Source: Parafrankia discariae
GTDB taxonomy: Bacteria > Actinomycetota > Actinomycetes > Frankiales > Frankiaceae
Reading direction: 5' to 3'
DNA length: 64,000 nt
NCBI RefSeq assembly: GCF_000373365.1
Contig: NZ_KB891252.1
Span: forward strand, 1-64,000
Translations under genes and position numbers: made by a program
In this document: one piece after another, positions 42,135 to 44,561 of the stretch
Layout of the letters: the number at the start of each line of letters is the position of its first letter
How positions within the stretch are numbered: position 1 is the first letter of the stretch
Notes under the pieces: generated by a model
Told to the model about the DNA's origin: nothing
What the model saw: the letters and a program-made list of their open reading frames with translations, nothing else
Database searches by the model: none

Positions 42135-43613
42135 TCAGGCGACCGTCCGACGGCCCGCGGCGACGCCGGTCGGGTCAGCGCCGGTCGGGTCAGCGCCGGC
42201 GGCGAGCGCGGCGACCCTGGTGTCGACGGCTGGGTCGAGGTTGCCACCGGAGATCACCACCGCGGTGGGCCCGACCGCGAGCAGGGGGGCCCGCAGCAAC
42301 GCGGCGACCCCCGCCGCGCCCGCGGGCTCCACCCGCTGGCCCGACCGGCGCAGCAGCACCATCGCCTCCCAGAACGCGTCCTCGTCGACCGTGACGACGT
42401 CGTCCACGAGGTGGGTGGCGAGCTCGAGGGTGAGCCGTCCGGGGGCGGCCACGGCCATCCCGTCGGCGATCGTCCCGGCCGCGGTTCCCGGCTGGTCGAC
42501 GGATCCCGCCGGGCCGCCGCTGCCCGGGGGCACCGTGACACGGTGCCCGGTACGGAAGGAGGTGGCGAAGGCCGGCGCGGCGGCGGACTGGACGCCGATG
42601 ACGCGGACGTCCGGGCGCAGGCCCTTGATCGCTACAGCAAGGCCACACAGAAGACCACCACCGCCGACCCCGACGATGACGGTGGCGAGGTTCGGGACCT
42701 GCTCGAGCAGTTCCAGCCCGATCGTCCCCTGCCCGGCGACGACGGCGGCGTCGTCGAAGGGATGCACCAGCAGCCGGCCGCCCGCGCTCGCGAACGCGGC
42801 CGCCGCCGCCAGTGCCGCGTCGACCCCGCCCGGGACGTACTCGACCCGGGCACCCCAGCGCCGGGTGCCGGCGACCTTCGACGGGTTGGCGCTCTCCGGC
42901 ACGAAGATCGTCGCCTCGACGCCGAACCGGGCCGCGGCGAAGGCGACGCCCTGCGCGTGGTTGCCCGCGCTCGCCGCCACGACTCCCCGCTCGCGGGCGC
43001 GCGGGCCCGCGGCCGCGATCCGGTGATAGGCGCCGCGCAGCTTGAACGACCCGGTGTGCTGCTCGTGCTCACACTTGAGCCAGACTGGCGAGCCGGTGCG
43101 TCGGGTCAGGTCGGCGTCGGCCACGACCCGGGTGCGCCGGGCGACCCCCCGCAGCCCGTCGGCGGCGGCCACCACGTCGGCGACGTCGACCGCCGGCGCC
43201 CCCGTCACCCGGGCCTCGGCCGGCAGCCCGACCCCAACCGGTGCCGCGGTCCCGGCCGGCAGCGCGGCGTCCGCCGGCAACGCGGTTCCGGCCGGCAGCG
43301 TGGCACCGGACGACACCGCGACACCGGACGGCAGCGTGGCACCGTTACCCGGGCGGCACCCCGCCTCCCGGCCGGACGCGGCCGCCCGGGGCCCGAGCGT
43401 GCGTCGACTGGACGCCCTGCGCGGGCCGCCCGGCCGCAACAGCCCCGGCCGCGCTCCGACCCGGGCGGCGACCGGGGTGACCCCGGTTACGGCCGGGGCC
43501 ACCGGAGCTGCCGCGGCCGGGCGATCTCCCGCGTCGTCGGCGTCAGCCGGGTCGCCCACCCGGGACGGCGAGGCGCCGGTCGCCGAGGGCCCGCTCACGG
43601 ATGGTGATGTCAT
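42135..43613 (-). CDS. ilvA: Threonine ammonia-lyase (dehydratase), without ACT domain
   Basis: The 492-residue PLP enzyme has the PLP lysine in HTGSFKLRGAYHRI (Lys191), SAGNHAQGVAFAAARFGVEA, the phosphate loop VIVGVGGGGLLCGLAVAIKG and a C-terminal AVVISGGN. It deaminates threonine to 2-oxobutyrate, the first step to isoleucine, or acts catabolically. After the catalytic domain only a ~25-residue tail remains, so the isoleucine-sensing ACT domain is missing. The first ~135 residues are Ala/Pro/Gly-rich with PAGTALPADAALPAGT-like repeats. ATG 43613 follows AGGAG. The gene is preceded by a leader peptide, hairpin and terminator, suggesting attenuation. A serine racemase/dehydratase role is an alternative. 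Confidence 0.85.
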   Translation of the reverse strand: MTSPSVSGPSATGASPSRVGDPADADDAGDRPAAAAPVAPAVTGVTPVAARVGARPGLLRPGGPRRASSRRTLGPRAAASGREAGCRPGNGATLPSGVAVSSGATLPAGTALPADAALPAGTAAPVGVGLPAEARVTGAPAVDVADVVAAADGLRGVARRTRVVADADLTRRTGSPVWLKCEHEQHTGSFKLRGAYHRIAAAGPRARERGVVAASAGNHAQGVAFAAARFGVEATIFVPESANPSKVAGTRRWGARVEYVPGGVDAALAAAAAFASAGGRLLVHPFDDAAVVAGQGTIGLELLEQVPNLATVIVGVGGGGLLCGLAVAIKGLRPDVRVIGVQSAAAPAFATSFRTGHRVTVPPGSGGPAGSVDQPGTAAGTIADGMAVAAPGRLTLELATHLVDDVVTVDEDAFWEAMVLLRRSGQRVEPAGAAGVAALLRAPLLAVGPTAVVISGGNLDPAVDTRVAALAAGADPTGADPTGVAAGRRTVA

Positions 43614-43664
43614 CGAAGATCTCCTGGGTGGCTCGGCGGCCACCTCGCTGGGGCCGCGGCAAAC

Positions 43665-43696
43665 AAAAAAGCCCCCCGCCGTAGGGCGGAAGGGCT
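43665..43696 (-). terminator. Rho-independent terminator (attenuator) before ilvA
   Basis: On the minus strand AGCCCUUCCGCC, loop CUAC, GGCGGGGGGCU is followed at once by five U, a G and three U. The stem has two G-U pairs and one bulge. It is one of very few U-tailed terminators in this window. It sits 50 bp upstream of the ilvA start with no supported gene ending before it, so it is best read as a leader terminator. Confidence 0.8.
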
Positions 43697-43697
43697 G

Positions 43698-43730
43698 GGC
43701 GCGCGACCCGTTCGAGGACGGTCACGCGCC
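43698..43730 (-). promoter_or_regulatory. Leader hairpin starting at the leader peptide stop codon
   Basis: GGCGCGUGACC (minus strand, 43730-43720) pairs with GGUCGCGCGCC (43708-43698): 11 bp with one G-U, loop of 11. The first stem base is the last base of the leader peptide TAG, the spacing expected if a translating ribosome disrupts it. It ends one base before the terminator stem begins. Confidence 0.65.
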
Positions 43731-43759
43731 TACGTAATCACCATGAGGTGCTGCGGCAC
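43730..43759 (-). CDS. Nine-codon leader peptide of ilvA
   Basis: GTG-CCG-CAG-CAC-CTC-ATG-GTG-ATT-ACG-TAG encodes VPQHLMVIT. Leu, Val and Ile are the products of the branched-chain pathways and Thr is the substrate of the downstream enzyme; the Ile codon is the rare ATT. A TTGACT (minus strand, 43794-43789) with a 17-bp spacer to CACGCT would place the transcript start at or next to this GTG, making it leaderless, which is common in actinobacteria. GGAGGG overlaps just upstream and could instead serve a start at the internal ATG 43744. The in-frame region upstream is open to GTG 43819. Confidence 0.5.
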   Translation of the reverse strand: MPQHLMVIT

Positions 43760-43765
43760 CCCTCC

Positions 43766-43794
43766 AGCGTGCTCCGCGGCCCGGGCGTAGTCAA
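43766..43794 (-). promoter_or_regulatory. Possible ilvA promoter
   Basis: Minus-strand TTGACT (43794-43789), 17-bp spacer, CACGCT (43771-43766). The -10 is weak, but the predicted start falls on the leader peptide GTG. Confidence 0.35.
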
Positions 43795-44561
43795 ACCAGC
43801 GCCCGCACCGACGAACCACCGCCACGGCGGGCGTACGGGCCGCCGGGCGCCGGGCTTCCTCGATCCGCGGCGCCGAGCGGATCACGGACGGGTCCGGAGC
43901 CGACAGCCGTCAACCACATACGAGAACACCCTAAATGCCCCGATTCGGGAGGCGTTCGTCGTCTTTTTGCTCCACAAACAAGACTTACGGCCCACAACCC
44001 GCCAACAAGAATGTCCGCGAAAGATCTCGACGGTACGGAAGTCGCCCGGGAAGTCTCCGACACCGGGCCGCCGGGAACGACCGCGAATGGCCACGGGGCG
44101 AGATGCGGGACCGCCAAGTACGACCAAGACGTCGGGCGACATGTCGCCCGGAACGGGCGGCGCATCTCGATGCCGCCGGACCGGTGCACGGGAAGGGCGG
44201 CGGCGCGCACGGACAACCGCCGGCGGGCGCAATACGGCCCGCCCGGCGGCGGAAGCGGCGGCTTTCCGCCGGGCGGCTGACGCGATTTCCCGGCGGCGAA
44301 TCAACATCCGACACCATTTCACGGCAATTCCCGGACACGAACCACGCAACACCGCCCCGCCGGGCGGTGGGGCGGCGTACCGGCGGGCCCACCGACGGAC
44401 GCCCTGGCCGGCGGCGGAACCACCCGGCGGAAGGCCGGACACCGCCGGCCATCCGGCCTACCCGGCCGCCAGCCGCCCGGCCCGCGGCGGACGGCCCGCG
44501 GCGCGGACGAACCGTCGTCCCACCGCCGGCGCGGACGAACCGTGGCCTCACCCGTGGGCCG
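43795..44561. other. Intergenic region between guaA and the ilvA leader
   Basis: About 770 bp with no supported gene. Bases ~43900-44040 are clearly richer in A and T than the surroundings. A perfect 18-bp palindrome, CGGGCGACATGTCGCCCG, lies at 44133-44150. Several open frames exist on both strands, but their compositions (Arg/Pro/Gly runs) look like chance. Confidence 0.4.

Follow-up and report, generated by a model that had tools for sequence, protein, structure and literature searches.

A two-hairpin isoleucine leader, probably a transcription attenuator, precedes ilvA in Frankiaceae and cimA in other actinobacteria

A leaderless short reading frame, two adjacent hairpins and a T run lie directly in front of the ilvA-like gene of Parafrankia discariae, and together they probably form an attenuator of transcription in which a translating ribosome responds to the level of charged isoleucine tRNA. 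The element, found in a 64,000-nucleotide stretch of contig NZ_KB891252.1 (hereinafter designated the window), is conserved far beyond chance, and comparison of related sequences establishes its frame, its Ile codon, both hairpins, their spacing and the link to enzymes at the entry to isoleucine synthesis. No family in Rfam 15 matches it, and a search of the open-access literature yielded no account of an isoleucine leader upstream of cimA or ilvA in actinobacteria; the element is new in this sense, as neither Rfam 15 nor any of the papers searched contains it.

Organization of the element in the window

The gene order on the minus strand is guaA, a gap of ~770 bp, the element, the ilvA-like gene and pcrA. 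The genome encodes no second strong member of the ilvA-like protein's family (294 bits versus ≤90 bits for the next matches), and the protein, as stated in the preliminary description, lacks an ACT domain. The gap between guaA and the element (about 43800-44560) contains neither a convincing gene nor an Rfam match. A T-box or riboswitch was considered and rejected, as no such Rfam family occurs in the window stretch (sub-threshold noise only) or in 14 related loci.

Minus-strand reading and folding place the TTGACT/CACGCT pair, the GTG start, the nine codons, hairpins A and T and the U run where the preliminary description had put them (Table 1). CACGCT is spaced 6 nt from the GTG at 43759; a CA...T pattern recurs 6-8 nt 5′ of the start codon in Frankiaceae and in most cimA elements, and transcription probably starts at the GTG itself. 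The ATT used for isoleucine is indeed rare, with 4 ATT versus 101 ATC codons in four neighbourhood genes. The T run is separated from the ilvA ATG by 51 nt.

Within this interval, hairpins B and S lie between the terminator and the ribosome-binding site, and their conservation and mutual exclusivity could suggest that ilvA is controlled mainly at the level of translation. We consider this very improbable, because the AGGAG sequence is covered by neither hairpin, both are described here only in Frankiaceae, and translational control would leave the promoter, the Ile codon and the terminator unexplained.

Table 1 Features of the element and its downstream gene in the window
Feature	Position	Strand	Evidence or conservation
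-35 box TTGACT	43789..43794	-	TTGAC invariant in 33 copies; TTTGAC in nearly all Frankiaceae copies
-10-like box CACGCT (family pattern CAnnnT)	43766..43771	-	17 nt from -35 box
Leaderless leader frame GTG CCG CAG CAC CTC ATG GTG ATT ACG TAG (VPQHLMVIT, stop)	43730..43759	-	in frame in 33/33
Invariant Ile codon ATT, presumed sensor codon	43736..43738	-	ATT in 33/33 copies
Hairpin A, 11 bp; lower stem GGCGCG(C)/(G)CGCGCC invariant, upper stem variable	43698..43730	-	folding; compensatory changes in cimA family
Terminator hairpin T, 10 bp with one bulge	43671..43695	-	folding; covariation
Terminator U run (T6)	43665..43670	-	T run in every copy
Hairpin B, GCGGCCCC/GTGGCCGC, 3′ of terminator, Frankiaceae; one mismatch in window	43636..43657	-	helix scan; 8/8 pairs in 29/33 copies
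Hairpin S, GGTGGC/GCCACC, beside ribosome-binding site; excludes B	43627..43644	-	6/6 pairs in 28/33 copies
Shine-Dalgarno AGGAG of ilvA	43621..43625	-	GGAG/GGGAG kept in nearly all copies
ilvA-like threonine dehydratase, PALP domain only, without ACT domain	42135..43613	-	ATG at 43613; domain and homology searches

Conservation in Frankiaceae

The element was detected in 33 of 35 Frankiaceae genomes with a covariance model and in 32 of 35 by BLAST, the closest named match being that of Parafrankia soli (96% over 251 nt). When the region is compared with five further genomes of this genus, conservation sets in exactly at the -35 box in four of them (query position 101, corresponding to 43800) and continues from there. 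A search of the same genome returned no second copy, and short BLAST matches elsewhere (e.g. L015) were dropped on account of the unrelated sequence around them.

The Frankiaceae comparison set consists of 33 distinct copies, extracted and aligned, which keep the promoter, the frame, the Ile codon and both hairpins; loss of the frame or the stems in close relatives, which the preliminary description had named as evidence against an attenuator, is seen in none of them. An in-frame GTG follows the -35 box by 35-37 nt in all 33 copies (the second GTG in the case of GTGTG), and the longer leaders of four Pseudofrankia copies preserve the frame through insertions of 15, 45 and 75 nt. Leaders end in M-x-I-T-stop in 28/33 copies and in M-I-I-N or M-I-I-S in 5/33, the latter having gained a second Ile beside the invariant one. 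The invariant Ile stands two residues ahead of the stop, is the single Ile codon in most leaders and lies 5 nt ahead of the core of hairpin A, while Leu and Val vary. In three copies that have lost TAG, the frame runs a few codons into hairpin A and the distance from the Ile codon to A is unchanged. Hairpins A and T both fold in 33/33 copies; the upper stem of A and T are variable, and within the family the lower stem does not vary at all and hence carries no information on pairing there. One copy (L102, G030:C1) differs from the others just past hairpin S, where the usual ribosome-binding site is gone, as if the sequence had been rearranged.

A class-wide family upstream of cimA

A first covariance model, built from 21 Frankiaceae-family copies, matched 64 other genomes of the class. 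The 44 loci that were fetched carry downstream cimA (32), ilvB (7), a short ORF (2), leuA (1), leuS (1) and a Frankiaceae-family ilvA (1). Citramalate synthase, encoded by cimA, is the other enzyme that supplies 2-oxobutyrate to isoleucine synthesis. Model R2, built from 27 sequences of the wider family and zero Frankiaceae members, matches 213/297 genomes and 94/114 genera of the class and recovers the Frankiaceae ilvA leaders with E values of 5e-4 to 4e-13 per genome. Among 39 further loci of the R2 set, 37 precede cimA, one of which (L266) was judged by eye as its motif reads DGGQ; in covariance-found loci cimA was assigned by sequence motif, consistent with TIGR00977 in the protein-based search. 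Outside Frankiaceae, 69 of 71 Ile elements precede cimA and the other two a small ORF.

As a check independent of the models, 30 cimA loci were picked by protein alone, and 24 of them carry the element. Four of the six loci without it belong to Frankiaceae, and the cimA upstream regions of six Frankiaceae-family genomes contain no such leader. Full-length, ACT-type ilvA genes carry the element in 0/30 cases. Together with the cimA scans, this count places the element at cimA across the class and at the ACT-less ilvA in Frankiaceae.

Some variation in architecture was also observed. In L243-L246 (f18 genus g24), the loop of hairpin A is enlarged, the element measures about 118-122 nt and the leaders extend past the start of A (MIIGSRRAGPQ, followed by a stop).

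The leader codons point to isoleucine

Leaders upstream of cimA include MYFQMIII, VSTQVIIT, VTRSLIIT and MSAVVVIIS, each followed by a stop, and endings before the stop include IIT, III and IIG; an ilvB leader of the same family reads VQSNSLILVLGRRAAH, likewise followed by a stop. All 71 leaders outside Frankiaceae contain Ile and 65 of them tandem Ile, and ATT makes up 95/162 Ile codons in the leaders versus 67/917 in the cimA genes; these counts come from model-found elements and related genomes that are not independent, and are biased upward because the models include ATCATT positions. The protein-picked cimA set agrees with them in direction.

The preliminary description had spoken of a branched-chain leader, a term that suits the invariant Ile codon and is otherwise too broad given the variation of Leu and Val. 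The comparative checks that it proposed, an alignment of related ilvA upstream regions among them, come out in favour of an attenuator: the frame and Ile are conserved and the stems covary in the wider family. Leu and Val are not conserved, and Thr is lost in one lineage. Since Leu and Val are unconserved and a second Ile appears where Thr is lost, isoleucine is likely the amino acid that is sensed.

Leucine versions of the leader were found as well, with MTNLLLT before leuA and MNRALLA and MRSALLLT before leuS, each followed by a stop (leucine-codon loci L188, G067:C27:86400-89500; L190, G229:C1:1007900-1011000; L258, G094:C1:2636100-2638000). Judged from their codons, these leaders show a change of specificity within one leader design, the meaning of the codons tracking the downstream gene (Ile at cimA, Leu at leuA and leuS).

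These data also bear on the possibility that the unit from promoter to terminator is an independent gene for a small RNA or small protein, positioned upstream of ilvA by coincidence. Its own promoter and terminator and a predicted RNA of ~95 nt would suit such a gene. This explanation is nevertheless extremely improbable, because the association with ilvA or cimA holds across the class, the codons follow the pathway (Ile, Leu), and conservation in Frankiaceae reaches the ilvA ribosome-binding site, with no space for a second promoter.

Two helices are under selection and no antiterminator is found

Covariation among 27 diverse copies comprises eight pairs changed on both sides across the two stems, with 38 both-side-changed cells versus 11.4 ± 3.0 in shuffles and 0-6 in slid controls. 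In arm-by-arm duplex calculations for 67 elements, just two pairings, A5:A3 and T5:T3, have energies far better than those of shuffled sequences, and A3:T5 is worse than shuffled. With frame and stems conserved in relatives and both stems covarying in the wider family, the earlier proposal of an amino-acid attenuator before ilvA is strengthened.

We searched for an antiterminator that would be mutually exclusive with the terminator, as in the classical form. None was found by a helix scan of 24 aligned Frankiaceae copies or by partition-function folding with ribosome footprints, in which T folds in every state for nearly all copies, and duplex energies between all arms of the 67 elements revealed no conserved third pairing relative to shuffles. 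Placing the ribosome at the Ile or stop codon leaves the terminator able to fold in the Frankiaceae copies and likewise in three Mycobacterium-type ilvB leaders (ilvB partition-function values were used only for copies with the correct T run picked). Two candidate pairings were dropped, as each is present in some copies and missing in others: in the first, the loop of A pairs with the 3′ arm of the terminator (GCUCC:GGGGGC), and in the second, A3 pairs with a GCCGCGG located past the terminator. We regard the missing antiterminator as a genuine trait of the family, and the absence of a third helix across 67 elements leaves a textbook three-helix switch unsupported. The preliminary description, which had also seen no convincing antiterminator between the hairpins, was right in this respect; its likening of the layout to that of ilv attenuators is contradicted, as regards the enteric ones, by the lack of the third helix.

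A classical trp-type attenuator could still be imagined if its antiterminator, as a weak or non-nested pairing, had been overlooked: the control codons and the stop sit relative to hairpin A like segment 1 of trp, and a few of the Frankiaceae copies have an alternative fold that brings the terminator down to 0.77-0.91 for certain ribosome states. Given that neither the helix scan nor the arm-by-arm duplex test yields a third pairing, and that A3:T5 is if anything depleted, we regard it as quite unlikely.

In 52 of the 71 elements outside Frankiaceae, the last Ile codon lies 5-6 nt ahead of the core of hairpin A. With such constant spacing, a ribosome stalled at this codon would cover the conserved lower stem.

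Proposed mechanism

The element combines a short coding-type frame, containing codons for the end product of the pathway, with an intrinsic terminator between leader and gene, both hallmarks of a ribosome-mediated attenuator. In the mechanism that we propose, RNA polymerase would start at the GTG and a ribosome would load on the leaderless start. When Ile-tRNA is ample, the ribosome would finish and leave, A would fold with T beside it, and transcription would stop after ~95 nt. When Ile-tRNA is scarce, the ribosome would wait at the rare ATT, five bases before A, masking the invariant lower stem; with A masked, the polymerase would continue into ilvA and more 2-oxobutyrate would become available for isoleucine. 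Stalling and read-through upon starvation are what we infer from the arrangement of the sequence. That hairpin A assists termination at T, and that its loss weakens termination, is a component to which we give slightly less than even credence. Because a ribosome that has reached the stop codon would cover A too, the two states must differ in dwell time. The folding of T in every ribosome state for nearly all copies and the single Ile codon of most Frankiaceae leaders likewise speak against this scheme.

Relation to known leaders

Actinobacterial ilvB leaders, as described in two reports (Seliverstov 2005, PMC1262725; M. tuberculosis ilvB1, PMC13236596), likewise comprise a short branched-chain leader, an adjacent GC-rich hairpin and a U-run terminator. 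Mycobacterium-type ilvB copies also start leaderless and are matched by the Frankiaceae covariance model, and the present element shares with the ilvB-type two-hairpin design the leaderless start, control codons just 5′ of a GCGCG-based hairpin and the adjacent terminator. The ilvB leaders differ in that they precede ilvB and mix Leu, Ile and Val codons, whereas the Frankiaceae/cimA element uses Ile alone before ilvA or cimA. According to PMC13236596, induction of mycobacterial ilvB1 was abolished when the branched-chain codons in its leader were mutated; as an M. tuberculosis leader of that kind needs these codons, the lack of an obvious antiterminator is no argument against function, and by homology to this tested leader the present element would be controlled by isoleucine. 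Counting against the model, leader codon changes at S. coelicolor ilvB had no effect on regulation (reported in PMC1262725). The same paper describes no conserved structures for amino-acid pathways beyond Trp, Cys, Leu and the ileS T-box.

Alternatively, hairpin A could itself be the antiterminator: a ribosome at Ile would leave A partly free, so that A folds and blocks T, and a ribosome at the stop would cover A and let T form. Such a scheme, as we understand the report, was proposed for M. tuberculosis ilvB1 with support from codon mutations (PMC13236596), and in many copies of our element a ribosome positioned at Ile does not prevent the upper half of A from folding. It appears unlikely here, because A and T are non-overlapping in the folded copies and fold together, and because the stalled ribosome would cover the lower stem, the most constrained part of A.

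Other known leaders are comparable as well. Streptomyces leuL leaders before leuS and leuA (PMC8079986) are leaderless short peptides with repeated control codons, followed at leuS by a hairpin and U stretch, but they concern leucine and other genes, and the leuA one has no typical terminator. The Corynebacterium ilvB-II motif (PMC10272879), for which attenuation was proposed, has a uORF rich in branched-chain residues; it belongs to another gene and genus, and the likeness is one of description. E. coli trp and ilv attenuators also sense charged tRNA through a coding leader and end in an intrinsic terminator, but operate by alternative pairing of four segments, whereas the actinobacterial element lacks the third helix.

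An attenuator of this kind would give the majority of the actinobacteria sampled, Streptomyces-like and Mycobacterium-like genomes among them, a specific RNA switch on the first isoleucine step, which is important for nitrogen-fixing Frankia and for the supply of precursors to many antibiotics. A long-standing puzzle becomes testable as well, namely that actinobacterial leaders resemble attenuators yet lack the textbook antiterminator: in dozens of diverged copies, only two helices are under selection. A broader reading, possible but rather doubtful, is that of a class-wide isoleucine attenuator of Actinomycetia with two hairpins and without a base-paired antiterminator, in which the stalled ribosome destroys the helper hairpin beside the terminator, and which in Frankiaceae moved from cimA to the ACT-less ilvA, RNA control replacing feedback inhibition. 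The preliminary description suggested that control at the RNA level could make up for the missing ACT domain, and the distribution of the element agrees with this (0/30 at full-length ilvA versus its presence at the ACT-less Frankiaceae gene), as a correlation within one family and not as proof. The swap between cimA and the ACT-less ilvA offers a natural test of this replacement.

At two loci (L170, G203:C37:281000-284200; L172, G130:C6:194200-197400), the Ile element precedes an ORF of 103-107 aa without a Pfam match, which by eye resembles a free-standing ACT domain and could possibly be a separate isoleucine-sensing subunit.
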